Assembly: GCA_016180425.1 (NCBI GenBank)
Contig: JACPBF010000016.1
Location: 1-54,694, forward strand
DNA: 54,694 nucleotides
From: Elusimicrobiota bacterium
Lineage (GTDB): Bacteria; Elusimicrobiota; Elusimicrobia; 2-02-FULL-39-32
Reading direction: 5' to 3'
A model generated the notes under the pieces. It saw only the letters and a program-made list of their open reading frames with translations. It was not told the DNA's origin and searched no databases. This document shows positions 3,001-49,100 of this stretch, piece by piece (position 1 is the stretch's first letter; every line of letters begins with the position of its first letter). Both the position numbers and the translations under genes were made by a program.

Positions 3001-6000
3001 AGCAGAGTTTTTCTTAATGGAGATTGGAGTTCATCCTTTGGCTTTGGAAGCATACGATAACTTAATGCTTTTATATGAAAAACCTAATGCCCTGTTTCAT
3101 CCAGATTTAGGAATTCATGGTCTTAAAATGGAAAACGTGGAAAAACTTAAAAAACATCCAGAATTAATTGAGGTGATTCAGGATCGCATTCAGGGGTATG
3201 GAAGCGCAAAAGATTTTTATGTGCAAAAATTGTCTCAAGGGATCGCCTCGATTGCGGCAGCCAATGGAATAGATCAAAAAATGCTTTACCGTTTTACAGA
3301 TTTCAAACAGAATGAACTGAACAAAATGGTTGGAGGGGAAGAATTTGGAATGAAGGAAAGCGCTACCATGATTGGCCATCGAGGAGCAGGTTATCTACTA
3401 GACCCTGAGAACCGCATTACCTTTGCCTGGGAATTGGAGGCGATTAAACGCGCGATTTCCATGGGCTATTCAAATATTGGAGTGTTCTATCCTTTTGTAA
3501 GAACTCCAGATGAGCTGCGCCGGGGTTTAAAAAGGCTGCAAGATTTAGAGGTTCATGCAAAAAGTGTTGGGATGATGGTGGAGCTTCCTTCTAATGTGAT
3601 GCAAGCAGAGGAATTTATAAAAGAACTTGCTCTTTATGGAGAAAAAAATCCTCAAACCGAACTTTTCTTTTCTTTTGGCACAAATGACTTAACCCAACTT
3701 ACCTTACGGGTGGGAAGGGACGAATCAAAAGTAGCTGATCTTTTTAGAGAATCTGAAGAGTCTGTAATCGCCAGCATTCGGCATGTGGCCTATGCTCTTA
3801 ATAAAGCGAAAAAGAAATATAAAGATTTAAAACTTAGTTTGGGTTTGTGCGGCCAGGCGATTGTAAAACTGGCGAATCCGGATGAAACAGGGTATAACCC
3901 TCAAGCTGCTAAAGAGATTATTTCCATGCTGGATTCAGTTGGCACTGATGCGCTTGGATATTTACGAGCCGTAAAGTTAGCCGCAGAAGCGGAACTGGAA
4001 CATTCAGAATTAAGTGAAGCCGCCATAGCAGCAGCAGTTAGAGGGGAAGAATCAGGTAGAGGCGAATATGCTGATCGAGAAGCAGGTAGAAAAAGTAAAA
4101 AACTTGGAGATTTCAAATTAATTAGCGGACCAGAAGGTATTTCTTCCGGCAGGCGGTTAAGAGTCATTCGAAGCGAGAAAGAGTTAGATCAGGTTGGCAT
4201 TGGCGAAACTCTTTATTTTCCAATGGGTTTAAAATTGTCTGAGGATAAATTAACAGCAGCTATAGATCTGGCAGGATCAGTTCTTGTAAGCGAACTTTTG
4301 GTTGAAGCTGGTAACGATAGAGAGGGACTTTTTAAACAGCTGAATAAATTGCTTACAGAAGTTCCGCACAAGCCTTTTGGAAATGTGCCTGAACAGTTAG
4401 CGCCTAGGTTAGAAGATGGGAAAATTTATACGATTGATTTTGAAAATAGAATTATACTTTTAGGAGAGATTGTCCCTCAAAGAAAAGAGCCGGTCACTCC
4501 CGACATTTTGGAAACAGCTTCAGTTGCAACCAGTCCACTTGAGCCCTTATTAAAGCAAAAGCCGCAAATGACCGGCGCTGAGGCGCAAGAGCAGGAACAA
4601 CAGATTTTAGAGGATCGGCCAAAAACAGTGTTAGTTGTTAAAGCAGCAGAACTTTATAAAAAAATCGGAATTCATCCTCTTGCGCTTTTAGATTATGACA
4701 GGGGTAACAAAGGCAGGTTAAAAAATCATCCTGAAATTCTGGAAAAAATATCTGAGCTCTTAGAGCAAGCTGGGATTGATGAATCTAAAAAAAATAAAGG
4801 GAAAAAATATTTTAAATTAGCGCTCGTTAGAATCATGGCAGAAACATTGCAAAAGATAAGCTCTCCAGATCAAGCTGTGATCTATCAAACCAGTGATTTT
4901 ACAAGCGCAGATTTTAAAGAACTTATTGCAGGAAATCTTTATGAAGATACGGAAGAGGCAAATCCTCCTTTAGGTTTTAGCGGATTAGTGCGAATGATCA
5001 GTGAAGAATATCAGCCTATTCTACGCTGGGAAGCAGAGGTTTTGGAAGAGCTCTATAGAAGCCCTGGGATTGAAGAAGCGATTAAACCTCGTCTTGGCAT
5101 TCAATTTACGGATGTGCGTTTGATTCTTCATTTAAAACAGGCAATTTCTTTGATGCGAGATTGGGCTCTTCAGCAGCACATAGAGATTGGAATCCGCATG
5201 GATAATCCGGATAATTATATTCGAGCTAAAGATTATATGAAACTTGCGCAATTTTTCTCTGTAGATGAAGCAGTTTTATTTCAGCAATATTTTGCGGCAG
5301 ACACAAGCAACAAAGCAGTGCCAGTGGTTAAAAATATGAGTAAAGTCAAAAGAGCTTTAGAGCCTGTGATTGTACGAGTTAGGCGTTTTGCAAAACAAGC
5401 TGGAGTAAAAGAGGTGGAAATGGCTAGTAAAGCAGAAGCGCGCGCCCCTCCTTCAACTGTGGAAATTACACGCAATCTATTGAATGCTATTCCTCTATTT
5501 ATTTTTCCCTTTGCTTTTGTTTATGCTCTTCTGTATAAAACCAAATCTGTTGGCGCTAACCCTTTAGAATCCAATATTGTTCAAGTTGTTCAAGAAGTTC
5601 AACAGCCTTTATCCGATCAAATTTTTTCCTATTTATCCGCATGGTTCGTCAATTACGGTATCTTCTATATTATTGCCATTGCCGGAGGCGTGGCGTTGCT
5701 GTTGTTATATGTTTATAACAAGAATTTCCGTGAGGGAGTTGTTCGTAAGTTATCACAGTTGTTTAGGTCAGGCACTCCTCTTGGCAATGCGATTCGATTC
5801 CCATTATTGGGAGCACTCAGCGTGGGTGGCGGCGGTGCAGGCGGATTAGGCAGAGGGCTTGTTGGAGGTAGTGACGCGAGCCGTGGGTTTGTTGGGGAAG
5901 ATACACCAAAGTTAGGAGCTACTCATCCAGAGCTGGAAGATCTTTATAAAAAACAGGTGGAGGCAAGCACACCTGAACATGTTAAACAAAATAAGATTTT

Positions 6001-18000: not shown

Positions 18001-21000
18001 CTGGCTTCAAGTTTATGTAAGAGGTAAACCAGAACTTATTCCTTGGTTTAATAATTTAGGAATAGGAACTATTAGCGCAGCCCCTGTAACTGATGAGTCT
18101 GAGGGGTCCATAAGACTGGATGAAGTAAAACCCTATTTAAATCGTATCGCTCCAGAAAGGATTGAAGGGGAATTATTTGTCCCTGGACAAGCTCCTTCTC
18201 TTGGAATAAGAATCAGTGTTTTGCAAGAAAAGGAACTTGCTGCTTTAAGCCCAGAGATTCAACCTTTTTGGAACAAACATTATGTGGTATTTAAAATTGA
18301 AAATCCTTTTTTGGATTATGTTGCCTACATCGCATTTCAGGGTTTAAGAGAGTTTGAAACAGAAAACAGTCAGCTTCATGGCAAATGGGGCGGGGTTGGT
18401 TCTACTTCTTTTAGTGAATTTAGAGAACCAGAAAAAGAAGGATTCATCCATGCATTAAAAGGAGCGAGCGAAGCTACTGCATTTAGCGCTTCAGCAGGTT
18501 TAAATATTTTTGGAGCTCAAGGTGTCATTGGAATTAAACAAGGCAGTTTGGCAACAAAAAATTCAAAAGATGGGAAGAAAAGAAGAAAAGAGATTCTAGA
18601 ACATTATGCAGTTGCATTAAGTTATATCGCGGATCGTTTAGGCGGCGGATTTTTCACTTTCCCGGGAGAAGGACTTTTTAAAAAAGATATGGAGGTTCTA
18701 AGCTCTCTAGCTAAAGATTCTATTCTTTCTTCTAACCAAGTTCACTATTCAGCGCAAGGCTTAAAGTCCGCAAGTGAAGCTCTTATTTCTCAAGTTTTTT
18801 CTAGCAGAAGTTTAAGCTGGGAAGGAAAGGTAGTTCGCATTCAGGGTCTGGATGAAACAAAAGCGCTTCTAATTCCAGAACTTTTAAGAAATGGCGCTAA
18901 AGTAGTGGTTTCGTATAAAGATGATTTGGAGATGGAGGCTTTTAAAAAGAGATTTTCTCACTATTTTAGCGATCAGAGTTATCAAGATGTTTTTTATATT
19001 TTTAAGGAAGAAGATTTTAGTTTTGATTTATTAGGGCAGGTTCCTTTGGCTGTCAGGCAGGAGATGCGCATCGCCCATATTGATCTTGCAATTTTATCTT
19101 CTGACATGACTCAAGAATTAGATGAAGCTGCTTTTACTAATTTACGTTTGGCTGGAGTTAGAGGCATAGTAGGCCCAAAAAATGATTTTGAAGATAAGAA
19201 TAAAATTTCAGAAAGGCTGAATGGTTTTATATTTGAATACCATAGAAGACATAGTGACAGGATACCGATGCTTTATGTTCCAGGTTCTCTTGCATACGCA
19301 GGAGCTCTTGTGGCAGCTACTAAACCAGAAAAAGATGCAAGAGACACGGTGAGCTATGTAGATTCAGTACTTTATTTAAGGACTGTTGAATTATTAAAGA
19401 AAGCGGATTTTAACTATAGAACACCCTTAGAGATTATTAAAAATGAATTTGAAAAATTTTTGAATTTTGGATCCAGAAGCTCTTCCTGGTTAGGCAGGTT
19501 TATGACTGGATCTCCTTTCTTAAGTTGGATTGCAGTAGTTTTTGCAAGCTCTCCAATTTTAGAAAAGCTTTTAAGACTTACAAAGATGGTTTTAATGGTT
19601 ACAGCTATGGGAGCAACTGGCGGTTTGGGTGGACCTTATGGCAGTTCATATGGACAGGGAGAACAGGGAGAACATGGAAAACCTGAATCTACCACTCCTG
19701 AGCGCGCTCTAGACCCAGCTACCAATACCTATCCGCATCAAAATCGTTTTAGTTCTGAACAACAGGTTATGGATCTCCTAACCGTGGATGTGGTGTATAA
19801 AGCTATTCCTGAAGGAGAGGATAAGGAAGAATTGCGTTCTTACTTTGAGGATTTCGCTTATGATGCTGTTTTAAATGATGACAGTAAATTGCGAACCTAT
19901 ATTCAATCCACAATTCCGTGGCTGGCCAGAAATTATGGAGTAGCGGCTTCTTCTTTAAAAGCGTATTACAAAAAAATGGCTAATGGAGAAATAACTGGCA
20001 GAACTGTTCCTTCCATAGGTTTAGGGGTTAGTGGACTTTTAGCAGCTAGAGCAGCGTTTAGAGCAAGCGCAAAACAGAGCGTAGAAGCCATGGTGTTCCA
20101 ACTCTCTGATTTTGGCGGAGTGGAAGGAATAGAGGTTGACCCCCAAGCTTTTGCTTCTGAGGTTCTTTCCGCAGCAGTTTTAGAAAAACATGACGCGCCT
20201 ATTTTCTTAAAGTTAAATGTAAAAGTGAATGCGGATGAGTATCAGAGAAACCAAGAGAAAGAAATAAGGCGGGTTAAACTCTTGATAGAAAAAGCTTTGA
20301 TAGCTGGTTTTAAAGAGCTGGAGCTGGACGCGTTAGGCTCTTCCATGTTGTGGGATTCAGATAAAATTTTGATGGTCGCTCACTTAATTGAATTTGCCAG
20401 AAAAAGGGCTGCTGAAATTCAGGAAGAGAAAGACAATCTTGTGATCGCTTTGCATGTGGATTCCAGCGATTTGAGTGAATTGTATATATCTCAAGATGAA
20501 ATTGATAGGGAATTTAGTAGAGTTTCCTTATTTTTATCTAAATTAAAAGAGGTGTTTGATGCAAGAGGAATTTCTCTCCCTCAACTTTTAAATTTTGGCA
20601 TTGCTTTAGATTTGAATTCGGACAGAGTAAATGAAAAAGTTCAATTCCGTTTTGAGTTTTTAGATAGAATTTCTAGTTTTATAGAGTCTGCCTGGAATCA
20701 TCAAACAGCGATTTCTGTTCGCTTTAGAGAAAGTTTAGAGAATGAAGCTTTTACGAAAGCGTTAGAGGAAAATTTAGATTCTTTTTCCAATCATAAAATA
20801 GCTCAAGTGGATTTAGAAGCATTGGTTCAGTTGGAAACTTTAGAATTTAATAAGGAAGAAGATTCTAGCTCTTGGGGGTTAAGTGAAGTTATTCATAAAA
20901 GAGCGCAGCATTTGTTTACGACTTTAAGAGCGGCTTTTAAGGGACTAGGACTTGCTAGAGATGGTCGGCGAGATGCATGGGTGGGTTTAAGCCATGATCA

Positions 21001-29940: not shown

Positions 29941-30306
29941 TTATTTTTTAGATAACTTATTTAGAAAAATCGTAGAAAAGGTGGAAAGAACGCGTTCCAT
30001 GTCCGTACTAGTAAGCGTTCCTAATTTAGCCAGAACTTTTTCTTTTGATAGCGTGGCTAGCTTAACTAAACGCACTGTTGATGGTAAAAGTAATCCAGCT
30101 TCTTTCCATTCATTTAAAGGAACATCTCCTAAACTAGGATTTGTGTATCTTAATATTCTGGAAGTTATTTGGCACAGGATTATGTCCGGAAGCTCTTTGC
30201 AAATTTTTTCAGATCCAAGGATTAGCGCTGGTCGCGGTTTAGATTCGGATAAGTCGGTAAAAGGAAAAGGGATGAGAACTACGTTACCTGGTTTGAAATC
30301 GGTCAT
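29941..30306 (-). CDS. MazF/PemK-family type II toxin (endoribonuclease)
   Basis: A 121-residue protein if started at the ATG at 30306. The N-terminus M-T-D-F-K-P-G-N-V-V-L-I-P-F-P-F-T-D then S-K-P-R-P-A-L-I-L is the standard MazF/PemK opening (GDIV...PFPFTD...KRPALV). An ATG at 30336 in the same frame would add 10 residues, but the family start favours 30306. Neither start has a strong Shine-Dalgarno sequence. The start overlaps the end of the upstream antitoxin-like gene by 23 nt, suggesting coupled translation. The known role of the family is mRNA cleavage neutralised by an antitoxin. Its stop is 11 nt from the stop of giant gene 1, so the genes converge. It may stabilise the locus; that is inference. 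Confidence 0.85.
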   Translation of the reverse strand: MTDFKPGNVVLIPFPFTDLSESKPRPALILGSEKICKELPDIILCQITSRILRYTNPSLGDVPLNEWKEAGLLLPSTVRLVKLATLSKEKVLAKLGTLTSTDMERVLSTFSTIFLNKLSKK

Positions 30307-30469
30307 AGATGGAGTCTTCAGAGGAAAGCCAGTCATCAGCGAACGATTTTTCAGAGAGTTGACTCCATCCCATGTCCTCTTCGTGTTCCAGATATGAAAG
30401 TAACTCTTCCCGTTCTTCTTCGGTTAAAGAGGCAATTTCTTGCAGAATGGTTTGTGTTCTTTGAGTCAT
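30284..30469 (-). CDS. Putative antitoxin partner of the MazF-family toxin
   Basis: A 61-residue acidic, helical protein (I-L-Q-E-I-A-S-L-T-E-E-E-R-E-E-L-L-S-Y-L, then E-H-E-E-D and an acidic C-terminus). It lies directly upstream of and overlapping the MazF-like toxin. The L-T-E-E-E-R-x-E-L-L pattern resembles small DUF2281/RelB-like antitoxin subunits; I cannot assign the family exactly. The assignment rests mainly on position, size and charge. A near-consensus promoter ends 15 nt before its ATG, with A-rich leader and only a weak AGAG for ribosome binding. Confidence 0.7.
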   Translation of the reverse strand: MTQRTQTILQEIASLTEEEREELLSYLEHEEDMGWSQLSEKSFADDWLSSEDSIYDRFQTR

Positions 30470-31175: not shown

Positions 31176-34100
31176 TCGTTTTGGAGCGAGCGGCGCAAAG
31201 CAGTGGAGGAATATAAGAAGTCCAATTCACAAAACTTAGGTTTTCAGGTGGCTTCAGCTGCTGGGTTTTCTGGCGCTGAGACAGGAGCTTTGGGATTGAA
31301 TTCTATCAGCAATAAGCTGGAAATGAGCGGAATTGAATCTAAGCTTTCATCTCAGGTAATGAATCGGGTGATGGATAAAGTAAAGTCCAGGGGATCTTCT
31401 AGGATTGCAAAAAGAGATCGCGTTTCCCTTGGGCTTCCTTCTGAATTAGTGAACCGTATAGAAACTTATGGTGAGATTGAACAGGTTTATTTATCCAAAG
31501 GCATGAATTTAAAAATGGAGGTTCATAAACTTGCGCTTTTTGGGCAAGCTCTTTCTCCAGCTTCTAATTCCTCAATTTCTTCTAATCCTTTTGTGATTTT
31601 GATTCAAGAAGCGCATGACATTTATGGAGTGCAGGCAAATATCGCTTATCTTTTAATGGATGCGATAAAAATGGGTGTGGAGATTGTGGGTGTGGAAGGT
31701 TCCCGCGGGATTATGCAAGGGATTGAGAAGTGGAGAAATCATCCAGATAAAGAAAGCGTCATGGGAGTGGCTGGTTATTTGTTAAAAGAAGGGCTTCTAT
31801 CTGGAGTAGAGATAGCGGGGTTGTCCACTCAGGGAGGAGATAAGGCAATTTTTGGAAGAGAGAAAGGCTACGCGCAAGGGTTGTCCACTCACAGTGGAGA
31901 AAGGTCTGTGCAGTTTTATGGAGTGGAAGATAAAGAACCTTATTTAGAGCAGGTAAAGAGTTTTAAAGATACTTTAACTTTTAGTCAGGAAGTGAAAGAT
32001 TGGCAGTTGGGTTTAGAGAAGAAACTAGCTGAATTAAAAGAAGAAACCTATACGCCAGAACTAAAAGATCTAGACCAATGGAAGAACGATTACGAAGCTG
32101 GCAATAAAAAACTGGCTGAATGGGTTGAATTTCTTCAGGTGACTCATTCTTTATTGAACAATCATTATCCAAATGTCGCTAAATATTTGAAAGCATACAA
32201 GTTAGAGAAACAGATTGATTTTAAAAAAATTGAAGCGGATCAAAAAAAGATTTTGCAAGCTTTAGCTGAAAAATTAAACCGAGGCGAATTAACAGAACTA
32301 TTGGAAGATAGTTTGTTATATCGTTTAGGCAAAATGGGGTATGGGGAGTTTTATGAAAGCATAAGAGAAAAGTGCAAGAACGCAAAAATTAAAATAACTC
32401 CTGACATGGAACGCTACATTCAATATCTGGTTGGAGTAGAGGGAATAGAAAGAGTCAAACTTTTTCAAGAAGTAAAAGAGTTAGAAAATGAAGTTTGGAC
32501 TATGGTGGCTGGGACACCTAGTGGAAGCCACAACAATCAAGCAACTGCTCAAGTTGTGCAGGCTGACAAGGATTACAGATTAATAAAGAAAGGATTGGAC
32601 TTTAAACTCAATGTTGAGGAATGGAAAGAGTATGTGAGCAGAGCGGATGAAATTGAATCAGGAATTTCCGCGCTCTCTCTTAGTCCATTTACAGGCGCAG
32701 TGAAACAAGCTTTGGAAAATGTAAAAAGATTCAATCAGCTGTCTGAAGAAAGAAACGAAATTTTCCTTAAAAATTTATTAGGCGCGATGAACCCCAAAGA
32801 TTCCCTGAGAACGCCTGCGCAGATTGTAGCTTTGGTGGCAGGAGGGTATCACGCGAGCGGAATTGAGGAAAGGTTAAAGAAAAAGAACATATCTTTTATT
32901 ACTATTCGTCCTAAAATGCAAAGCAGTGAGATTAAGAAGGAATATCATCCATTAAATAGTTTTAAACGCGACTTGCTTCCTTTAGAAAAAATGTTCATGC
33001 ATGAGAAAGTAACGCTTGCTCCGCAAAGAGCCATGGGGACTGTGGTTATGGATGGCGCGGTCATAAGCGAAATTGGAGTGGAAGGCGCATTGCGCACTGT
33101 GGTTCCAGTTTTGGGTTTTGCGCATGGAAGGGCGGATGTAGAAAATCAGATTGAAAATGAGAGAAAAGAGGAAAATAGCGCTATAGGAGAGGTAAGTCTT
33201 GAAGATGGGTCTAAATTTGAAGTAAAGGTTTTTGGCGCTGAGGCTCAAGTTCAAGAAGCAGAGGCTAAAGGCGGCGCAATAGAGATAGAGACAGATTACA
33301 GTTTTGTAGAAAATCAAGGCAAACCAGAAAAGCTAAAACCAGAACATGTTGTGGTTAAGGGAGTGGGAGGAAAATTTGGACGTATCAAAAAAACAGTGTT
33401 AGCCGCAGGCACTTTTGCAGCCGCACTTGTTGCTGGAATTATTATGCTTCCATCTCCCGGAGATACAAAAGAGTTGGTTAAAGAAATGGCTAAAGCAACT
33501 GTAGAAAATGCGCAAAAACATCCAGAGCCAAACTGGTGGTTAGTTCTGCTTGTAGCCGGAGCAGTCATTGCTGCTATCGTTTATCTTATAAGAAGTTTTA
33601 GGGGAGATATTCCCGGATCTGAAACTTATGTTTTGCATGGGTATGAAGCTCGAGATCTTATTAAGTCAGGTAAAAAATCTTATGATCAAGGAGATTATGA
33701 TCAAGCTAATAAAATTTTTAACGCAGCGGAACAGTCTTTAGAACGCGCGATTGACTTAGATTCAAGAGGAATCTATGGACGGTCAAAAGGTTACGATGAG
33801 CTTGCTGGGGTTTATCGTGGAACTGGTCAGGAGGATAGAGCAAACTTAATTGCTGGTTATCGCAGCGATGCTTATAAGTATCACCATCCTTCCTTACAAT
33901 TTGAATCCGCAAAACCTAAATCTCGTGGACGGCTTTCAAGAATGTTTATGCTTGCCCTGACCCTTCCTTTAGGAATAGGGTTATCTATTGCGGGTACAGG
34001 CTCTCTGGAAGCTATTACAGAGTATAGTCTAGCTGAGCAGGAATATTTCCGCGCGGATCCAAGAAGAATCACTCAAGGAAAAAAAACAATTGAACTTGAA

Positions 34101-37100
34101 GGCGCGCAAGTTAGAGTGTTACGAGAGTTAAAAGATTTTGAGGACTATTTGGATAAGATGGGTGTGTCGCCTGAATTGCGTGAGCAGGTTTTAGAAAGAT
34201 GGGATCAACACTATGCGGTCTTTGAAATTAAAAATGAAAAGCTTGGATACACGGCCTATGCTTCCATGCACCGTCTTACAAAAATTGTAAGCTTTGCGGA
34301 TTCCATTGATGGAACTTTTCGCGCCATGGGCGGGGTGCGGGTAAAAATTGACGAGCTAGATGAAACAAATATTAAACGCGGCGTTTATCTTTCTGACGCG
34401 GATGCTCTGGGAGATGCTTTGGAATTGTCATCGGAGATGAGCTTTAAAACTGCAATGGCTAATCTTAAAGTGGGCGGGGCTAAAACCGCGATCCGCATGA
34501 AAAAATCTGTGGCGGATAACCAAGAAACCCGTAAAGCCGCTCTCTACAATTTTGCCGCGGTAACAGAAGCGTTGGTTCCTTACCTAAACGGCGGATTTTT
34601 AACTGGTAAAGATGAAGGAGTTACGGATAGTGATATTTTAGAGATGCATAAATTTGCTCCTACTTCCATTATTCCGCATGTGAGCGCTCACCTTGCGGAA
34701 GGCAAAGGGAAAGAGCCTTCGCGCCCGACCGCCATAGGAGTTTTGAGCGCCATGAAAACTCTGGCAGAACATCAATATGGTTCCAGCAGTTTGGTTGGTA
34801 AAGTCGTGGCTGTGCAGGGGCTTGGGGATGTGGGCGGGAGTCTTGTAGATTTTCTTATGAAAGAAGGCGCGATCGTTGTTTTTGCTGATTTAGAGAAAGA
34901 AAAGTTAGATAAATTTTTAAGTAGGTATCCACATTACAAAGGTTTATTAGGTGATCGCTTATTTCCGTTGATTGGGAAAGACGCGGATTATCTTTTTAAC
35001 CCACTTGAACAAGGTTCTCCAATTAAGGATCAATTGGAGGCGCGAGGCATTCACAAAATAAATATATTTTCGCCTTCCGCAGCGCGCTGGCAGGTCAATG
35101 AGAACACAATTCCAAGAATTGCAGCAGCAGGAGTAGATATTATCGTCGGCTCTGCGAACAATATGGTGAAAGACCGCAAGAAAGACTCCGAAACCTTGAT
35201 GAAGCTCAATATTACTCTTTTTCCGGATTATGGGGGTAACCCTGGTGGAGCGATTGTGGCGAACGGCCATTTAAAAGGAAACAATATTTCCAATGAAGCG
35301 ATTTACGGGTTAGTTAAAGATAACACCAACAAAATTATTGAGGAAGCAAAATTAAGAGGAGTGACGCTTCTCGTGGTTGCGGATGAATTAGCAAGAAAAA
35401 AATTCAATGAACTGCAAAAAAATGCTGGCGCGCCTTTGCCAATAGGACGTGAGACTTCCGATCTTGATAAAGATATGGAGCATGAAGAGTTCATTATTCC
35501 ACATGAGTTTACTGTGGCTTTAGGCCCTTTACCAGATAGAGATTTTAATAGTTTTGTGATGATGGTGAGGGATCAGGCTTCTTCCAAAATTAGGGCTATC
35601 TTAGAAGGGAACGATGTTGAAGATGGAGAGAAGGAAGAGAAAATCATCAAACATTTAACCAAACTATTTGCTTCCACAGGAAAGATCAAATCCATTCAAG
35701 TTCTGAATGAGGATCGTAAAGAGATTCTTGGACATTATGAATTCAGCTATCTTTCGGACGGCGGTTATTACCGCGTGGAGCTGCTTCAGGAGAAATTTGA
35801 TTTAGTGAACAAATCGAATTTAGCGGTTGGAACTTTTATAGCTATTTACGATTTGGAGAATAATTTGGTGGGTTCAATCGCTTTCATCAACGGGCCGATT
35901 ACAACCATGCTTGTTACAAACGGTAAAGATCAGATAAAACATTTTGCCTACAATGGCCAGGAATTTGTATTGCGCGAAGATAAGCTGGACTTATCTAAAG
36001 CAACGAATAAAGATAAATCTCCCGCTGCTTTAGGCGGTAACCTCATAAAATGGCCCGCTCCATTTCAACAATATTACTTAAGCCATGAGAGGGCTATCCC
36101 AGGATCTGATGGAGCCTCGTCACCGCTTAAAACGCGTTATGGCGGAGTACGCGAGGAAAATACCAACAGGCAAATTTCAGCGCTTGGCGCCAACCTTTAT
36201 GAAATTTTAATTAATAACGGGTTTATGGCAGAGGGGTTATCTCCGTCTGTCTCCAGACTTATTGCATCTTTTGTAAAGGCCGCTGGCGGCGACGCGGCTG
36301 CATTGACTTCAAAAGGGTTTCAAAAGATTGAGGACGTCCCTATGGATGAACCAGTGGTGCATCTCTATGCGGGCAACATGGGTGTGGTTCAAAAGATAGC
36401 GGAAGATCCAAAATTTAAGGAACCTGCGGACCTCAATCTATTGAGAGAGAGCCGAGCTCCGCCTGAAGAAGTGATAGATATGTTTAGCCCGATTGAAATA
36501 GAGGATTCTATTGAAGAAGATACTCTTGAATCAACCCTCCTCAAACTTCTTCCTTCAACAGAAGAAAATCAAGATATTATTAACGCCATGTTGGCTGTAG
36601 AGCAAGTTGCCGCGCTAGTTCCCGGTCTTTATGTTACCGGAGGCAAAGCAACAGGAGAGGTGGATTCCGGCGGGGCTGATCAAAGAGAAATAGACAATAT
36701 CACGGACGGGCTTTTTGCTTCCGCGGTAAAACCATATGTTTGGGCGTATCATTCTGAAGAGGGGATGATCAATTATGAGGATGGAGAAGGGAAAATTTTT
36801 GCTTTTATTGGGGATCCTCTGGACGGTTCTACAAAGGTAAAATCAAACGGAGGCGGGGGAACCATTGGCGCATTTTTACATCTTCCAAATTCACCGGATT
36901 CCGATGGAAAAAGAAAAGAAGGTCTTATAGAAAATGCAAGCGGAAGAGATATTGTTGCATCATTTTTTGTGACCTATGGAGTGGAGACAAAACTTGTGTT
37001 CGCATATAAAGGTTTAGGAGCGCGCGAGTTTGTGTTGAGGGGCGGAAAATTTCAGTATGTGGGGCAAGTTAAATTTGACTCCGCAGAAGATCAGAATAAA

Positions 37101-40100
37101 CCGATTCGCGTTGCATTGGGCGGTTCTCGATCCAAGTGGCCGCAAGGTTTCCCTGCTTTGAACGATCAATGGGAAAGTCAAGGGTGGGTTCAGGGTTATG
37201 CCGGAGCTATGGTTACGGATATGTATGGAGCGATCCAGCATATTCTAGGTGGAGGCAGGGCAGTATTTGCATATTTGGAAAATAAACTTAGGGTGCGGTA
37301 CGAAATCGCTCCCATGGCGTTTATTATGGAAGAAGCGGGCGGAGCGAGTCTTACGCACGATTGGGGCGAAGGAGATAAAAATCCACAGGCGGTGAATGTA
37401 AGAAGTGTGTTGGATATAAAATTTAGATTTGAGAAAGATCAAAAAGCTCAGCAGAAAGCTCCTGTGGCTTTAGGTGACCGCGCCACCATTGCGCAAATTC
37501 GCCGCGCCATTGAGAGAGATTTAAGCGAAATTTTGAGTTCTAAAGGTTGGCCCGAAGATATCGCGGCTGCCTATGCGAGCGAAGACTATCTCAAGATTGA
37601 ATCCATTGCGATGGATGAGAGTCGCGAATATGGGGAAGCGCATCGCAAAAAAGCTGATCAATCTGTTGAGGCTTTGGTTGAACTTATGAAATCTGGGAAT
37701 ACTAGCATGGAACCTGTTTTCTACCTTCAGGTTTCAAGAGCGATTTACAGAATTGCCACTAAAACCACGCTTGTTGGAACTCAAACCATGACAGATTTGC
37801 ATGGTATTTACGCTAATTTAAGAACATCCGGTAAACTGCCTGGAGATGTTTTGTTTTTTATTGCAAGGAATTTTAATTTGATTGTTTCAGTTAGAGGAAT
37901 CCGCGGAATAACTTTTAGCTCGCTTACAGGACCTCTTGATCCTGTTGAGGCAGAGAGAAGACTTGCCAATTTATTAAAACAATCTAATACCGGTCGTATA
38001 GTCGCTGGGGATAATGGTGAGGGTGGATTTACTTTTTCGGAATTTATTCCGGCTTTAACGGTTTTCTTTGCGGCAGTAGTTTTTGCGCCTCTTATGTGGC
38101 GCTTTGCATTAACGCACGCTTTCAATAAGAATTTCCGTGGAGCAGTAAACCAGTTGTTCTCTCTTCGTACATGGCAGATGGCGGTTCGGTTGGGTGCATT
38201 TGGGGCTATGGGTGCGGTGGGAGAATCAGGCTCGTCCGATAGCGGCGCGAAGCGATCGATTGCCCAAATTCTTGGATGGAGTGCGGAAGAACGCGGGAAT
38301 TTTCTGAACCTCCTATTCTCAATTTATTTGGTCCAAAGATTACTGAATTGGTCGGATAAATGGTATGAAGCTCCTCTCATGAGGGATTCAACCGAAGTTG
38401 AGGAATCAGCCAGGGTGGTTGCGGATGCCAAGAGGGCCGGTATGGCAGGAATTTATTATAGTAGGGATTTAAGGAAAATCTATGATAAATCGCTTGAGGG
38501 TGGACGCATTATTTCTGCTTTTGCCATTGCCTTGAATGGAATGGCGGCAGGGGTCGAGGGGTTTGCGGTAGACGATGCAAGAAAACCAATTGGGCTCGCG
38601 ATTGAAGAAAAAGATTTCCGATCGCTTGGGAAAATGGTGAGGTTGATCAATAGAGAAGGGTTGGTGGGTTTTAGCGATTCCGAGATAGAAACATGGAGAA
38701 ACCTATTGTTCCAAAATGGCATTACTCCGCAAGAGGAAGCGCCAATCGAACATAAGACTATCGATTATTATGATGAAGCGTTTTTGGGCCGCATCGATAG
38801 CGTTAGAAAAGTTAAAGAATTCAATGCGGAACAATTTAAAGATCTAATTGATCAACTCATAAAACAATCCAAAGAAGGTACTTGGTCCCCTGATAGGGAC
38901 ATAATTTGGGAAGCGCAAATCTTAATGCTCGCTGCGATAAGAGCGCGTAAGGAGGGCATCGCTGACGAAGATTATAAGAGATGGTACCTGAAAATCGTTG
39001 GCACCCAATATTTATATCATATGTATAAGTCCTTCTTTGTGCAACCGGCGGTGAATGCCATCTTAGAAGAAGCGGTTGATAACGGAATGTCGTGGGTAGA
39101 TGGCGAGGTGGTTGATTCGCTTATTGATTTTTGGATTCTGGAGACGGCCGATGATCCATGGTACGGCTTAGCATCATTCGATGAGTTCATTGAGTATCCG
39201 GAAATTGCAAGGAGAATGGGTACCGCAGACCCGTTGAAGATGAAGAGAATACTGCTTGGGCTAAATCAATTCGCTCTAATTCCTCAGGCCAGAGCAAGTT
39301 TTGCAGTTTCAGTATTTGGCAACCAGCGCGCACAACTGGCTCGTCCAGAAACAGATGCTCTTCTATCCAGGGCGATCGAATTGGTCTTTTCTCACAGAAA
39401 AAATCTCTTAGATTTTTACACCCTGTTTGTACAAGAGAACAGTAGCGAGGAAATCATAAGATTTCTCTCTAATTTGGAAGAGTTGGAGTCGCAGAGGAGC
39501 GTTGGAACTGCCGGAAGTGATGAAGGGACCGGATCAACAGCTGAGAAAAAATACGGTAGTTCTGGACCCAGTGTGCCCGGGAACGGTTTTACTTTGGCGG
39601 AATCTGTTACTGTGTCCGCACTTTTTATTACGGCTGTAGTTTTTGCGCCTCTTATCTGGCGCTTTGCATTAACGCAAATATCGTTTGTTGCTGGGGTTGC
39701 GCAGTTTGTCGCGCTTCATGCAGCGCCCATCGCATTGATTGTTGGCGGAGTAAGTGTAGCGCTTCTTTACGCTTTCAATAAGAATTTCCGTGGAGCAGTA
39801 AACCAGTTGTTCTCTCCACGTACATGGCAGATGGCGGTTCGGTTGGTAGCATTTGGCGCTATGGGTGCGGTGGGACGCGAAGGTACTGGCACATTGAGTG
39901 AGGATGTGAAAGAAGACTCTGCTGGAAAAACGGAAGTTGTGGAGACAGGAGTGCGAGTTGAAGTGCGGGTGGAGACTCAAGACAAGGGACAAACTATAGT
40001 GGCAGATAAAGTTGTTAAGACAACTGCTGCCAACAAGCATTTTTTAGGTATAAGTCAATTTCCGGATGGCGTCTATGATGCTGAATTTCCTATTACAAGC

Positions 40101-43100
40101 TTTTTAATAGGAGCAGGTGCATTGGCATCCAGCTTTATGCATGCGTTGCAGACAGCTTTGAAGTTGATCGTACTGGGCTCTTTGGGCGCTCTTGGTGGCG
40201 GCGCGGGTGGTATGCCGGCAGATGAGGCGGGATTACCAGTTGGTGATACGGGTGAGCCTACTGATAAGGGCGGTTCTCAAGAAAAGCCATGGAAAAAAAT
40301 TACGAGTTTTGAGGATGCGGTGAAGGCATGTGATATCTTTTATAGTGTAGTTAAGAGAAGAAAAGGGCTCAGTTCTACACTACTAGAAACTCAGAACGCA
40401 CTGGCAATCTTGAGGAATCTTACTTATACCTATCGTCCTTCACATCCGGCATATGAGTTTCGTCTTAGTTATCGGATAGAAGAGAATTTCATACTTTTAA
40501 TTGATGCTAACGAATTATCGGGTGAAAAACGTTTTAATATCACTTATGAGAATGGTTTTGGTGTTTATTTAATTGATGATCAAACCGTTATTCTGGAAAC
40601 GCCGCAAGGTACTGTAATGATTCAGAGGCAGAGCGAAGAAGGAGGCGATAAATTTAGGGTTGAGCTTATTCTAACCGCGGAAGGTCAGCCAGTAAATGCA
40701 GTGCCGACCGATTCGCAGATTGCTGAAGCAGAGACGTTCGCTAAGGAAGCCAATATTACTAGCGATGAAGATTTTAAGAATCTGGTAGCGATGGGTGTTC
40801 CAAGTGCGATGGAGATTTACATTGAAAGAGTTATTCGATCAATGGGGATGAGGGTTACAGATAGGGAAGCTTTTCATCTATTTGTTGAATCATATGAGGA
40901 TACGGTCGCTCGATTTGTCTCTTTGCATACGAAAAATCCTGACATGATATCTCATACTGTTCTTAAACAAGAGGAACGGTCTTTATTTATGTTGATGCTG
41001 ATGTTGGATTCTGGTCGAGGTAAGTGGCTGGCAGTGCCTTCTAGGGATCCGGCAGAAATGGAATCATCTGAAATAATGGATGACGAAATCGCGAGCATTG
41101 TTTGGCCGTTTCGTATTGGGAGAGTTCCATCAACAGCAGCTTGGGAAGTTTTAAGTGATGCGTTTTGGGTTTATGAGGGGAAATATTTTGATCAGGCTGT
41201 AAGTTCCTTTATGGAATGGTGGGAAAATGTGGAACTGGAGCTATTTCCTAGCGGTAGTTCTATGGATAGTTTCATGAAGTGGAAAAAAGACAAAGATAAT
41301 ACGGGAAAATCATTGATAGAGCTTTACGCGGAGTGGTGTTTTGAAATTGATCAGGAATATCGGAAAAATCCTGAGTACAACAAGTTAGGGTTCGTGACGT
41401 CGCTTTTTAACGACGGACGATCTCTTTATTGGCCGGTGCATGAAGCGCTGTTCGCAACATTAGAACGCAAATCAACGGAAGGAGACGAAAGAGCTGGAGA
41501 AATCCTTTCTGAAATCGTTGATTTGGAAAATGCAACCTTCAGGATATTTAAGGTTCAAGTAAAGGGTGGAGGTGAGGTAAGCGCAGAAAGAATGATTAAT
41601 ATTATGGGTAGAGGAAAAAGTTCCAAACCAAGGGCCACACCTGAGGGTGGATTTACTTTTTCGGAATTTATTCCGGCTTTAACGGTTTTCTTTGCGGCAG
41701 TAGTTTTTGCGCCTCTTATGTGGCGCTTTGCATTAACGCATGGGGTTGCGCAGTTTGTCTCTCTTAACGCAGCGCCCATCACCCTGACTGTTGGGGGAGC
41801 AGCTTTAGTTTTAGTCGCGCTTTTTGCAGTTAAACACCATTCCAACTTAGGAACCGCGCTTGCTCGATTCACAGCGCCAGACACGGCGTTTGGAAAGATC
41901 ATCCGCGTCCCGTTATTTGGCGCATTGATGATGGCTGGCGGCGGTATGGGCGTGCTTGACGCGGGTAGCCAGAAAACAGATGTTGCTTCCTTATTTCACA
42001 ACAGTGTTCAGTTGCCTGATCAGTATAAGGGCGATGCGGACTTATATGATTCTTTATTAAATTACTGGGAGAGACAAATTAAAGGGGAGTCCTCTGATAC
42101 GGCTAGAATTTTGGCGTTGGGCCACTTCATTTCGAAAACGGGCAGACGTTACAACAGAACCCAGTCTTCAATTGATTATCAGTTATCTCAGATGACGTAT
42201 AGAGAATTAGCTCAAATTGCCAATGCAGATTATAAATTGCGCGAAAAACTAAGAGAAGAACATTTAAGCAGCCATCTGAGCGCAGAAGATTTGGCATTGA
42301 TAACGGAAAAGGAGAAATCAATACAAAGCATGGCGGCTCAGACTCTTTTACAGCCGTATGAAAAGGTAGGAGTCCATCAAAGCTTAATTCCGGATTTCTT
42401 TAAACCGGTTGCCATAGACGCTTACCTGCTAGTAGATTCCGTGAAGTTAACTGTGGAATTTCGTCTTGTATTATTGAGAAAAGTAGTCCAAGAAGCTAAA
42501 AACTTATTTCGTGGTTTAAGACGCAAAGGCTCTGAATGGGTTGATAGTTTAGGGCAGCGCTACACTCAAAATCAAATGACTCAGCTTGGCAATTTTAGGT
42601 TTACCGGATATTGGTTTGATTGGGTCTCTTTGGCGATGGCCGGTCATATGAGTGGTTTTTCAAAAGGATTAGACCTTGGAATTAATGCTCCCGCAATTAA
42701 AGACTGGAGCGAAGAAGACCAGTCTCATTTTGCGAATCTTGTTCATTATATCTTAATAGTTCAAGATGAACTTAAGAGGTCTGGGATCAAGGAAGGAGAC
42801 GATGGGAAGTTATCTTTTAATATAGAGTGGGTTAGAGGTTATTTGGAGATCATGATTGATGTTAAACGGAATGGTATGGTTGGAGTCAAACTCCCTAACA
42901 TAAAAAGATTATTCGATGCTGCGCTTTCAAAATCTCATGATGTCCATGTAAATAATTTTGGGAAAATTGCAGAATCCGCTCAAAGAGCTGGCGTAGATGG
43001 ATTTGATGAAGAATATTTATCATCAGTAGAATCAAATGTTGCGAGTCGAACAAGATGGTTGCCAACCGACCTTAAGTACGTTGAGTATGAAAAATTCGTA

Positions 43101-46100
43101 ACGAACTCTAGTCCGCAAGAGGTAGAAAACCGCATTATGGAAGCCCTTCAAAAAACTCCTCGTAGTCTCGATGCCGCGGAGTATAGAGAAGCGCTGGATC
43201 TGATGGAAATAGCCGTTCAACAGCGTAAAGAGATTAGTGATGAAGGGTACTTGAGTCTCTATCAAGAGTTCCTTAAGACTGAATCTTGGTCCAACAAAGG
43301 TCATTCAAGGTTTGGGAGTGATTTCATAGTTCTAATTTTGGGAGAGGCAATCAGTTCAGGCAGGAAATGGATGAGCGTAGAAATGGTTAAGCGATGGGCT
43401 TTTGATCGCGGAGCTTTTACCAATACCGCTTGGACGGACAGTCTCCTTGTTCCTGCGGTTCAGCATGGAATTGTAAGCGATCCTAAAATAATTAGGGAGT
43501 GGATTAGCCGTTTAACATCTCTTGGATATCCCACAAGCGCCGCGAAGATTGCGGCCGCTGCCTATTCCAACGAACGGAAATTGATAAAACGAGACGATGT
43601 TGAAGAAACCCTTGAGAAGGCGGTTGGATCTTTACCAGCGGACGGGAAAGCAGATCTTTTGAGAATATTCAATACAAATGAGGCGCCAACGATCACCGCG
43701 GAAGGCAAGTCGCAGGGAAGTTCTGGTGCACAGATCGTTACCGGAATAGTTGCGCTTGTCGGTTTAACTGCCGTGCTTTCTGCTGGACTTATTTTGTCTT
43801 CACAACTTCCCGGTGGCGCTGAAGTTTTACACTCCGTTGCTTCTGTTGCCGGAGCAAAAGCGAGCGCGGCGGGCGCGATGGGCAACTTGCATTTTGATTC
43901 TTCGTTGATGAAATCAATTGGTTATGGCGCGGTGTTAGGTTCTCTCTCCTCTTTCTGGGGCGGCAAGTTTTGGAGTAAAGCGCCGTCCGAGGTTCAGTTG
44001 GACGTGCGTCAAGCGGATGAGGTAACTGCGATGTCGCAGGAAGAGTCTTGGGGAAGGCACCCAACTCATGTATGGTACGATGAAATCTACAAAGGTATTG
44101 GGTTAACCAGTATTTTGTTAACTGTTGGGGGAGTCTTGAGTATTAGCGCCATTCTTTGGGGATTTTCATTTGGAGATGTCGCGAATGCTATGGGGCTTGG
44201 CGGGGCTTTGCCTGTGGCACAGGCCGCGAGCTGGGGCTCTGGGGCGGTGCTTGCTGCTGCTTCTGGTTTAATTAATTTTAGGGAGCAGGCGCAAAAATTG
44301 GTGATTCGCGAAGATATTTGGAGAAAGTATCCGGAAATTTTTGGCAATAGAATTGTCAACGGGCGGCCTGTGGGAGTGGAAGACCTTATCAGGAAATTTA
44401 CTCTTCAATTTGGTCCAGAATTTTCCGATCGTTTAAAAGATCGCAGAGATTTCTTAAAAGCTGTTGCGAATGGAACTGCAAAATATGGTTTCCAGCCGCT
44501 GGATGAGGTATTTGAAGATCCAGATGGAGAAGAATTGACTGTAGAAGAAATAAGAGAGCGTTTAAAAAATAATTTCTATGGCGCTGAAGGCAAGGAGGGC
44601 TGGAGATTAAATGATAAAACTCCTGTGCCTCAAGAAGTTTTGCGCCCTGGATTGCAGGGAACGGGACCCGCGCACGCTTTAAGAATGATGATGAGCGCGA
44701 TCAACGCCAAGACCTCTTCTTGGATGTTCGACTGGGAAGACGCAGGAGACGACTATGATGATAAACTCTACCGGGCTTGGAAAAATTTAAAAGAAGTTTT
44801 AGCCGGAAAATGGGAAAACCGCGAATATACGGAAGGCGGAAAAACATCTTCGATAAAACTTCCGCGCGGGGAGTGGGGATCTATTTTCCACCGCTTGCCT
44901 GGTCTCGGCATTAGAAACAGGCAGATGTGGATTGGAGGGGAAAGAGTTCCAGCCACGATTGCGGCCATGGTGATTCATGTTTTAAATAATTATGAATCCT
45001 TAAAGAAGAATGGCTCTGGAATTTATTTCTATATTCCAAAAATTGAGACCCCGCAAGAGGCATTGCTTATCGGCAAATTGTTGAAAGCTCTGGAAGAAGA
45101 AATTGGTGTGCCTAGAGGGACTATAAAAATCGAGATGCTGCACGAACGCATTCGGTTTACTCAGAACCAAGAGATCATCATGTGGGTTTTGCGAGATTGG
45201 CTGATTGGACCTAATGTTGGACGTTGGGACTTTATTGCCAGCCGTGTTGAAATGGGTAAGGACGATCCTAAAATGGTTCTGCCTAATCCGCATGACATGA
45301 AGATGACAGAAGCCTCTATGACAGAATATACTCGCAGAAACGCGATTCTTACTGTGTTGGCTGCGGTAAAAAATGGGAAGATGGTGAACGGCATGCCCAT
45401 TGGCGGAATGTCCGCGGTGATGGAAAGAAATGTTCCTGAAGAAGGGGAACCAAGAGAAAAAATGCTTGCCGCAAACGAAAAAGCAGTTCGAGATATCTGG
45501 TTTGATAAACTACGCGAACGGTTAACGGGTTTGATTGAAATTAATGGCATTCAATACGACACCTATCGCCAGAGCTGGGTGGCAACCATTACGGAAAAAT
45601 ATGTGCGTTCAGGTGAAGAGCCTTTGATCGCTTCATTGGATGAATTGCAGGGATTGGTAGATCGGAGTGATGAGAGCGAACTGAAACGTTTAAAAGATTT
45701 GGGTTTGGTCAATGAGCTTGGCAGGATTCAATACTACGTTGTTACCAAAGAGGATATAGATAATCTCTGGTCACCTCAAAAGTGGGACGATCTCACTCGC
45801 GTTCCGAAGGGGGATATTTCCATTGACGGCATTGAGTACGCGGCCACCATGTCCGCAGAGTATGGTTTTGGTGTGCTGAATGGAAATCAAGCTGTTAAGA
45901 TTTTTGACTATAAGAGCGATAACGGAATGATGAACGACTTTGCCACGCACGAAATCTTTTGGCATTGGATGTGGACTCTTGCCAAACATGAAGTTGTCTT
46001 AACCAAAGATGGAACCATGCGGGATGGCACTGTAATAAAAGCTGGAACAAAAGTTACCCCTGAACTTCTTAAGATGGTGCTGGATAAAGTTTATGTTTCC

Positions 46101-49100
46101 GCTGAAAAGAAGATTGACTATCTTGAAAGCCAAGGGCTTTCCAAAAATGACCGTAGATTTTCTCCGCTCATCATGAAAATTTTGGAGCGCCAGCTTATTA
46201 TTGACAATGGAGACCACACCTATTCCATGCAGAATAAGTGGGTGACATACGGTTCCCGCATCCTTCTTTCTATCATCGAACTGGATCCAGAAAAAGACGC
46301 GAAACTCATTGACCAAATCTTGGACGCGGTTTACAGCGATTCCAGAAAAGATGTGGCAGAAAAAGTAAGGTCAGGCGAGTGGGATAAAAAAACTTTGGAA
46401 GCTTATGATTATGTGTTTGATAATCCGGACGCAAGAGAATTCGGTTCTGTTCAAGGAATAGCTAGAAGAGTCTATTCTCATTTTGTAGGCGGGGCTAAAA
46501 TTGCGGGCATGACTTCTTGGATTATGAAAATGAGACAAAATATCTCTACGCTTGATCAATGGATGAAATCAGACCGATTTATCCGTATCCATAGGACTCG
46601 GCCTTATTCAGCTCGAGAAATTTATGCTATTCGCGGCGCTGTGTTAGACGATACAACTTTTCATGATCTTATGACAAGAAAACTTTTCTTCCTTATGGGA
46701 GAAGCTCAAAGGACTGGTATCCCTATTGTAACAGGAGGGGTGATGGACGGCCCTTCTGCCGCTGCAATGGCGCAAAAAGGAATGAAAGCTCTTTACTTTA
46801 GCGGCTGGCAAATGTCGCATCACTGGGGTGAACCAGACTTGGCAAAGTATCCGGACGATACAGTTCCAAATAAAATTTACGAGATCAATCATTATTTGCG
46901 CAATCAGCACGAAGACCAAATAGGTCGTTATAAAGAGATGTCTGATAAGCTGGAGGATATTTTTAAGGAATTCTATAGAACCCTTCCTAGAACTAAAGCA
47001 GACGATTTAGTGCTGCGCACGGAAGTTAGAGATGAGTTCATAGAAAAGTTTATGAACGCAGTGAAAGACGATCTTCCGATCTTTGTGGATGAGTTAAGAG
47101 AAGATTCAGAAACCGTGCTTTACAATCTTTTTTCAGAAATTGTGGTGCAGGCAATCGCCCAGTATGTAAGCCAAGGAAGGATCGCTCATGAACAAAGAAA
47201 TGCTCTGAGGGAAACAGTATTCCAAACTTTGGAAGGCTACCTGATTGATTATTTAATTCCGTTTTATGCGGATGGAGACACCGGACATTTATCGCCGGAA
47301 AAACTGGTTCAATATTTTGTTCGGGCTGGGGCAGCAAGCATACATTTAGAAGATCAAGCTGATGGGGAAAAGAAGTGCGGCCACATGGCTGGTAAAGTTT
47401 TAACTTCCATGAAAAAGCATTTTCAAAGACTTTTGATAACTAGTAAGGAGAGGGATCGGCTCCATTCAGAGCTTCTGATTATTGCCCGAACCGATGCCCA
47501 GGCCGCAAAGCTCTTGCAGAGCAATGACGATCCCATGGACCATTATTTTATTCTTGGCTCATCAGTAAAAAATCTTCCTTCCTTAAAAGATGTGATCCGT
47601 TTGGCAAGAGGAGACATGCCTGAGTATGCTTATCGCGGGGATAACGAAGCGCTTATTGACCGAGCCAAAGATTTAATGGCCCGGGTCAATCATCAAGAGC
47701 TTGAGAATATCTTGCTTCCCAAAACTCCTGCGCAGGTTTTAGAGATGTGGGAGCAAGAATTTCCTGAACTAGCTAAAACCATTCGTGATATTTGGAAATC
47801 TACAGGAAGAATAGATGGAAAAAGATTGGAAACTGATGTTTATTTTCTTAAAGTCAAAGATCCTCGGTCAACTGAAGATGGCAATTTGTTAACTTACAAT
47901 ACGGTTTGGGTGCATCGGGAACTGATTGAACATGGAGAATATCCTTATCTTGAACTCGACACTTTAATGGAAGATGAAAACGGCAAAGAGGTGACTGTTA
48001 AAGAACTTTTAGAAAGGGAACCAGTTCATCTTGCCAAAGAAGAAGCTGCCTTGCAAAAATTGACTGAAATCTGGAGGGCGGAAGCTAAACTTAAAACTTA
48101 TTCTCAAGCAGTGGGGGAGAAGATTCTGGAGATGAGAACATCCCGGTTTATTTCTGAACAGGGTAGAGAAAATATTAAGAAATGGTGGGAAGATGCCACG
48201 AATCCTTTAACCAACACTCTTTCTCTTAATCAGATGAAGTCTCTTGCTAAAACAATTGGAATTGAAATTGATTGGGATTGGGATAAGCCAAGGGTTTATG
48301 AAGGTTTTTATCAAATTGACAGTGGGTTAGGGGTATTAAATGCTTCTATTCGGATGAGACAGTATGCAAAGATTGCGGATGTGGCATGGATGGAACAGGA
48401 CAGACCTAATATTAAGCATGCCAGAGAATTCCATGACAATGTGGTAAACGATCCGCACAACCCTGAGTCAAAAAGTATTATTTTTGCTCTAAATCTTTCT
48501 CCATCTTTTAACTGGAGCGATCCAGAAGGATGGTCGGCTGTTCTAACTAAAGAACAGATTGAGAATATAAAGAAGGCAAAGTTATTAAAAGGGTTTAAGT
48601 GGAACAATCCAAATAGTTGGGGAGAATATGGAGATGATGTTTTAGTGATGTTAGAAGCGATTGCTAATTTTAGCATAGATATGGGCAGAGCTGGTTTTGG
48701 ATTCCAGTTTGTCACTATATTTCAAGATCATACCAGCACGCTTCATATCTCTAGAACCGCAAAGGAGATGTTACGCTTAGGCGCAGCAGGATTTGTCTTT
48801 AATGTTCAGCAGATGGAACAGTTAGATGGGGTTATATTCGAAAAGCATCAAACTGCGGCTGGAGTGAAAAGAGTCAGCAAAGGAGAACGTGTTATCATGC
48901 GAGGCTCTAATGCTACTGGAGCGGCCGGCAAAGATTCCACAGAAAATCAGTTTGGGGCAGGCGATGATTCTAATAAAGTAAAACGCGGATTGATCTCGAT
49001 GGATGATGCCAGCTTAAAAGAGTTTGCGGAAAATTCTCTGATGGTTGCTTCTTGGCTGGGAACTGTGGGATTGCCTGCGGCAATTGCTTTTGGAATTATA

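Follow-up and report, generated by a model that had tools for sequence, protein, structure and literature searches.

The analysed window comprises 54,694 nucleotides and represents an entire contig (JACPBF010000016.1) of the Elusimicrobiota assembly GCA_016180425.1, a genome of 2.6 Mb with 98.5% completeness. One uninterrupted frame of 20.8 kb on its plus strand, referred to here as open reading frame (ORF) 2, carries two consecutive segments related to class I fructose-1,6-bisphosphatase (FBPase): a diverged one (copy 1) and, directly behind it, a recognisable one (copy 2). This arrangement had been proposed in a first-pass annotation for positions 35480–37440 and was confirmed by the extent of the frame and by profile matches. 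The pair and its key residues are located as follows.

31065–51857, plus strand: ORF2, the giant ORF of 6,930 amino acids (aa) bearing the FBPase pair; it begins with a signal-peptide-like segment, MIKFWNKKSNKSWKQLTASLVVFCFLFSTLSAPFAQA

35520–36410, plus strand: copy 1, predicted full-length, catalytically dead FBPase homologue (NF006786, hhalign, Foldseek, VIA and substitution rates)

35793–35819, plus strand: copy 1, degenerate loop at the metal site, KFDLVNKSN replacing FDPLDGSSN (sequence; none of the three alignments retains D121)

36135–36140, plus strand: Arg-Tyr of copy 1, kept in both species, candidate equivalent of Arg243-Tyr244 (alignment-dependent)

36570–37352, plus strand: copy 2, homologue of class I FBPase in which the metal and catalytic residues are intact (NF006786, PF00316, PF18913 and residue table)

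36813–36833, plus strand: DPLDGST metal-site motif of copy 2 (sequence and residue table)

37194–37196, plus strand: Gly of copy 2 at the position of Arg243 (alignment; Gly in both species)

A check for the same pair in related genomes, suggested in the first-pass annotation, revealed it in one further species of the same genus, Elusimicrobia bacterium RIFCSPLOWO2_02_FULL_39_32 (MGUU01000016.1), in which the ORF2 orthologue has 6,139 aa. The pair is 84% identical in this second species, with no stop and no frameshift, and the copy 1 segment is 88% identical.

Copy 2 exceeded the Pfam cut-offs in both its N- and C-terminal domains (PF00316, E 4e-12, 46.6 bits at a cut-off of 34.8; PF18913, E 9e-11, 42.2 bits at a cut-off of 27) and matched the NCBIfam model NF006786 with E 5e-19. 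Individual residues were compared in a MAFFT alignment with 16 reference enzymes and the E. coli FBPase; the human residue numbers were placed on the copies via known motifs. Copy 2 had been described as intact. This holds for the metal and catalytic residues, as D74, E97, E98, D118, D121, Y244, G246, M248, Y264, K274, R276, Y279, and E280 are all retained, but not for the 6-phosphate pocket (N212, R243, Y244, Y264): in both species, R243 is replaced by Gly and N212 is lost, while Y244 and Y264 are kept. Arg243 is present in 16/16 reference enzymes and in the E. coli FBPase. The motif following DPLDG is STK instead of the usual SSN, and the N-terminal part, where the canonical FBPase has its AMP site, is shortened. 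Judging by these residues, the substrate pocket of this class I FBPase homologue is non-canonical, and its hydrolysis of fructose 1,6-bisphosphate (FBP) is a prediction.

The profile search proposed earlier as a check of copy 1 yielded three class 1 FBPase models of NCBIfam and nothing else; the best of these matches (NF006786, E 4.1e-6) lies far below the naming cut-off of the model. It covers residues 98–292 of copy 1 (35811–36395) and profile positions 97–280 of 286. When the whole region was scanned, the NF006786 score increased from 68.5 to 85.9 bits, with two matching stretches. Copy 1 gave no Pfam match, even at E 10, and no FBPase match as a single-sequence query against the PDB. A hidden Markov model of FBPases built here scored copy 1 at 14.0 bits and its counterpart from the second species at 13.2 bits, compared to 3.6 for the best of 2,000 shuffles. 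Alignment of copy 1 with FBPases by hhalign resulted in P 1.3e-4; this value leans on copy 2, since P was only 0.033 once copy 2 was removed. The AlphaFold model of copy 1, computed from an alignment of the two copy 1 sequences with no FBPase, was poor (predicted local distance difference test score, pLDDT, of 41). Searched against the PDB with Foldseek, this weak model retrieved FBPases at ranks 1, 3, 4, and 5 (E 0.1 to 0.3); in the VIA structural alignment, four FBPases had Z values of 9.0, 8.8, 8.6, and 8.5, followed by 6.3 for the next structure, with residues 1–160 covered at most. These structural matches concern only the first half of a weakly modelled protein and are supportive, not proof.

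Two losses had been ascribed to copy 1. The loss of the metal site was borne out: D74 is changed to I/L, D121 to N/K, and E280 is absent. According to the residue table, P119, R276, and Y279 are missing as well, and the substrate-binding residues are almost all gone. The C-terminal part, on the other hand, had been reported as lacking but is present in degenerate form, the NF006786 match extending nearly to the end of the profile. Copy 1 thus appears to be a full-length, very diverged class I FBPase, with its C-terminal part degenerate, not absent.

The motif ALG(G/S)...KWP is common to both copies, while most other FBPases are NEGN-like at this place. The alignment score of copy 1 was 74 with copy 2 and 50–68 with other FBPases; in the second species, the score between the two copies was 54, a weak value within the shuffle maximum of 63. 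Because of the shared motif and the slightly higher score, tandem duplication is suggested as the simplest origin of the two copies, although the signal is weak. Of 294 genomes of the phylum, only two, both from this genus, contain PF00316 above the cut-off, and FBPase was therefore probably acquired by the genus. A wide distribution of the pair in the phylum was rejected within the genomes searched, the pair being found in this genus only.

The ratio of nonsynonymous to synonymous substitution rates (dN/dS) between the two species was 0.14 for copy 1 (at dS of approximately 0.5) and 0.18 for copy 2, with values from 0.10 to 0.31 for the neighbouring domains. The dead copy 1 is maintained by purifying selection similar to that acting on the live copy 2. 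Identity between the species was 94% in the beta block of copy 1 and 89% in that of copy 2; for the C-terminal part, it was 92% and 85%, respectively. This slightly stronger conservation of copy 1 fits a structural role. Only the loop after ALGG is loose in copy 1 (62% identity, with a 6-residue indel between the species). Pseudogene debris as an explanation of copy 1 was ruled out by dN/dS and the absence of stops. A milder version, in which copy 1 is a relic being lost and retained only because any deletion must preserve the frame, would agree with its catalytic death and with the loose loop. However, it is largely refuted by the low dN/dS at this dS, by the lack of stops and frameshifts, and by the conservation of its core blocks, which at least equals that in the live copy, and we regard it as very improbable.

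In the pair, the metal and catalytic residues are confined to copy 2, from which Arg243 has been lost. Arg243 of an ordinary FBPase contributes to FBP binding in the neighbouring monomer (PMC5777782). The Arg-Tyr of copy 1 was aligned to Arg243-Tyr244 by hhalign and, for the copy of the second species, by hmmsearch; as far as alignment can tell, it is compatible with standing in for the Arg243 absent from copy 2. The Arg of the segment NRQISALGAN was also considered as the Arg243 equivalent and was dropped for lack of conservation in the second species; the nearby Arg-Tyr remains the candidate.

Alternatively, copy 1 could be a regulatory domain, whose former active site binds an effector controlling the live copy, comparable to the tandem phosphofructokinases or hexokinases of eukaryotes. 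Such a role would be in line with tandem copies of conserved fold with one dead half, and with the shortening of copy 2 in the part that harbours the AMP site in canonical FBPase. Still, with its substrate residues almost all gone, copy 1 is unlikely to bind a sugar-phosphate effector, and no ligand-site motif was recognised in it, which leaves this role distinctly improbable.

Upstream of ORF2 lies ORF1, whose frame spans at least 9,970 aa; downstream, a third frame runs off the contig. With giant ORFs defined as single frames of more than 20 kb or 5,000 aa, both ORF2 and its upstream neighbour belong to this category. The giant frames occur in identical order on MGUU01000016.1, and their enzyme blocks are collinear and approximately 80–91% identical between both species; unlike these blocks, residues 2723–5826 of ORF1 are shuffled and variable in comparison with the orthologue. 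The other domains recognised in the two frames are listed below.

851–4100 (end approximate), plus strand: phosphoenolpyruvate (PEP) synthase in ORF1 (PF01326, PF00391, PF02896; NF005057, E 2e-142)

4658–5407, plus strand: second, degenerate PEP synthase C-terminal domain in ORF1 (TIGR01418, E 6e-20; motif loss)

18242–19219, plus strand: degenerate dehydrogenase copy in ORF1 (27% identity to the ORF2 dehydrogenase, E 3e-21; motif loss)

27392–28051, plus strand: degenerate malate synthase copy in ORF1 (TIGR01344, E 4e-13; motif loss)

31182–32984, plus strand: N-terminal domain of ORF2, common to many giant ORFs of the lineage (sequence search)

34161–35384, plus strand: glutamate/leucine/tryptophan dehydrogenase-like domain, directly upstream of the FBPase pair (PF00208, PF02812; NF035922, E 5e-34; dN/dS 0.10)

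44883–45530, plus strand: malate synthase TIM-barrel domain in ORF2, retaining the Mg ligands and the catalytic Asp (PF01274; aligned to a free-standing enzyme)

46545–48953, plus strand: isocitrate lyase in ORF2, with the KKCGH motif at 47370; the sole isocitrate lyase found in the genome

PEP synthase, the dehydrogenase, and malate synthase each appear, by their motifs, once with catalytic residues and once without, as does FBPase. The first-pass annotation had compared the FBPase pair to the PEP synthase pair, with one live and one dead copy in the same chain, and both PEP synthase domains indeed lie in ORF1. Retention of the dead copy by selection was shown for FBPase and the dehydrogenase. 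The malate synthase of ORF2 retains E/D/D when aligned to a free-standing enzyme, and malate synthase in this genome is confined to ORF1 and ORF2. All PF00208 dehydrogenase domains of the genome lie inside giant frames. Searches of the 98.5% complete genome revealed no free-standing isocitrate lyase or PF00208 dehydrogenase, and neither a GlpX-type nor a PF01950 FBPase was found in it. A free-standing PPDK-type gene (926 aa) is present, together with three free-standing phosphofructokinase genes, which may include the reversible pyrophosphate type. A neighbouring genus (g3) encodes isocitrate lyase and malate synthase as ordinary genes of their own, and in two related genera (g2 and g4) they lie within longer frames. 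A genome from a different family of this class (G010, contig C13, 87375–88337) has a PEP synthase-type domain inside a frame of 6,078 aa; enzyme-bearing giant frames therefore extend beyond this genus.

Several side observations were made on these frames. Prepilin-like G-F-T-[FL]-x-E motifs with a hydrophobic stretch recur in the giant chains, at 38022–38120, 39582–39680, and 41640–41750 as well as at residues 7320, 7766, and 8353 of ORF1, one region of which reaches the Pfam N_methyl cut-off; two of the ORF2 motifs are almost identical (GGFTFSEFIPALTVFFAAVVFAPLMWRFALTH). Between the two giant ORFs, a minus-strand ORF of 131 aa (29941–30336; NVVLIPFPFTDLSESKPRPALIL) resembles MazF/PemK-type toxins by eye only. 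On another contig of the genome, C10 (93751–94530 and 98170–101520), a frame of 8,039 aa contains the strongest PF00208 match (E 6e-53), and the following frame of 3,567 aa contains two weak ones. C10 breaks off (110577–112706) within a giant ORF whose N-terminal part resembles the beginning of the ORF1 orthologue; it is therefore probably adjacent to the window contig (C33), in a cluster of at least five giant ORFs.

The setting also allows the dead copy to be read as a module with a structural or spacing role in a giant surface protein, in which enzyme domains were captured and duplicated as stable folds and catalysis has no metabolic role. The N-terminal domain of ORF2, present in 20 of 60 genomes searched, has 38 matches in its own genome; the signal-like start and the segment topology suggest an extracytoplasmic position; copy 2 and malate synthase are far more diverged than their free-standing relatives; and giant ORFs of Omnitrophota have been interpreted as surface proteins (PMC10066038). 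Against this, every metal and catalytic residue tested is present in the live copies (FBPase, malate synthase E/D/D, isocitrate lyase KKCGH), whereas the twins have lost them, and neither a free-standing isocitrate lyase nor a free-standing PF00208 dehydrogenase was found in the genome. On balance, we find the surface-protein explanation somewhat unlikely.

Class I FBPase functions only as a dimer or tetramer, and in many organisms PEP synthase, glutamate-family dehydrogenases, and malate synthase are likewise oligomers. Since FBPase requires a partner, we tentatively favour, at slightly less than an even chance, the explanation that copy 1 is a covalently attached pseudo-subunit of copy 2. 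The FBPase domain would have been duplicated in tandem; copy 1, which has lost its metal site, would pair with copy 2 inside one chain, giving one active site per chain without the need for a second giant chain. In a more specific form, the Arg-Tyr of copy 1 would replace the inter-subunit Arg243 missing from copy 2. The pair could catalyse a sugar-bisphosphate step within the set of gluconeogenesis and glyoxylate enzymes (PEP synthase, FBPase, malate synthase, isocitrate lyase) encoded on the tandem giant ORFs, although its exact substrate is uncertain because the copy 2 pocket is altered. An obligate composite enzyme, with the dead copy donating the lost inter-subunit Arg, as one case of giant chains carrying gluconeogenic and glyoxylate enzymes, mostly with dead twins, seems to us quite unlikely when taken as a whole.

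A number of results weigh against the pseudo-subunit explanation. The AlphaFold model of the pair reached a pLDDT of only 31.6 and gave no usable interface, and the pair is known from only two genomes, too few for a coevolution test. MAFFT puts non-conserved residues of copy 1 at Arg243, so that the placement of the Arg-Tyr depends on the alignment, and in the stretch that follows the Arg-Tyr there is a 6-residue difference between the two species. The dead dehydrogenase and malate synthase lie in ORF1 and their better-kept partners in ORF2, so location in the same chain is no strict rule. Finally, the signal-peptide-like start and the hydropathy and positive-inside reading assign an extracytoplasmic location to the dehydrogenase-FBPase segment, and FBP would not be expected there; this topology is a crude calculation from hydropathy and charge balance and is partly self-contradictory. 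The positive side of the hydrophobic segment at residues 777–795 faces the N-terminal domain, whose export would be predicted from the signal-like start.

Most giant proteins of Elusimicrobiota and Omnitrophota either lack an explanation or have been interpreted as surface weapons. In the genome studied here, the only recognised class I FBPase, isocitrate lyase, and PF00208 dehydrogenases sit inside giant chains. The idea of giant metabolic chains with built-in pseudo-subunits can be tested concretely on the FBPase pair, which at approximately 650 aa is small enough for expression and assay.

Giant ORFs of Omnitrophota and Elusimicrobiota are already known (PMC10066038, PMC11573180, PMC12057145). 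As described in the accessible parts of these reports, they share with the ORFs of the window very long single frames, many per genome, and transmembrane segments; the domains reported there are for adhesion, carbohydrates, or of unknown function, in contrast to the central-carbon enzymes with dead twins found here. Within the accessible portions of the open literature, preprints and subscription papers aside, no description of central-metabolism enzymes with dead twins in giant ORFs was found, which is no proof of novelty. The next-best solved relatives of copy 2 are sedoheptulose-1,7-bisphosphatases (5iz3, 7b2o), which also lack the NEG motif but retain Arg at the Arg243 position, where copy 2 has Gly. 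Both copies share homology with class I FBPase (PF00316/PF18913; NF006786) along most of the domain, and copy 2 likewise has the metal ligands, DPLDGS, Y244, Y264, K274, R276, and E280. The pair differs from it in being a tandem within a 6,930-aa chain, in its dead copy 1, and in the Gly at Arg243, the missing Asn212, and the short N-terminal regulatory part of copy 2. Mammalian hexokinase and eukaryotic phosphofructokinase arose by tandem duplication with one half losing catalysis. The FBPase pair appears to follow the same scheme of duplication with a dead half, but in a different fold, and unlike these enzymes it lies inside a giant multi-enzyme chain and its dead half has lost the substrate residues as well.

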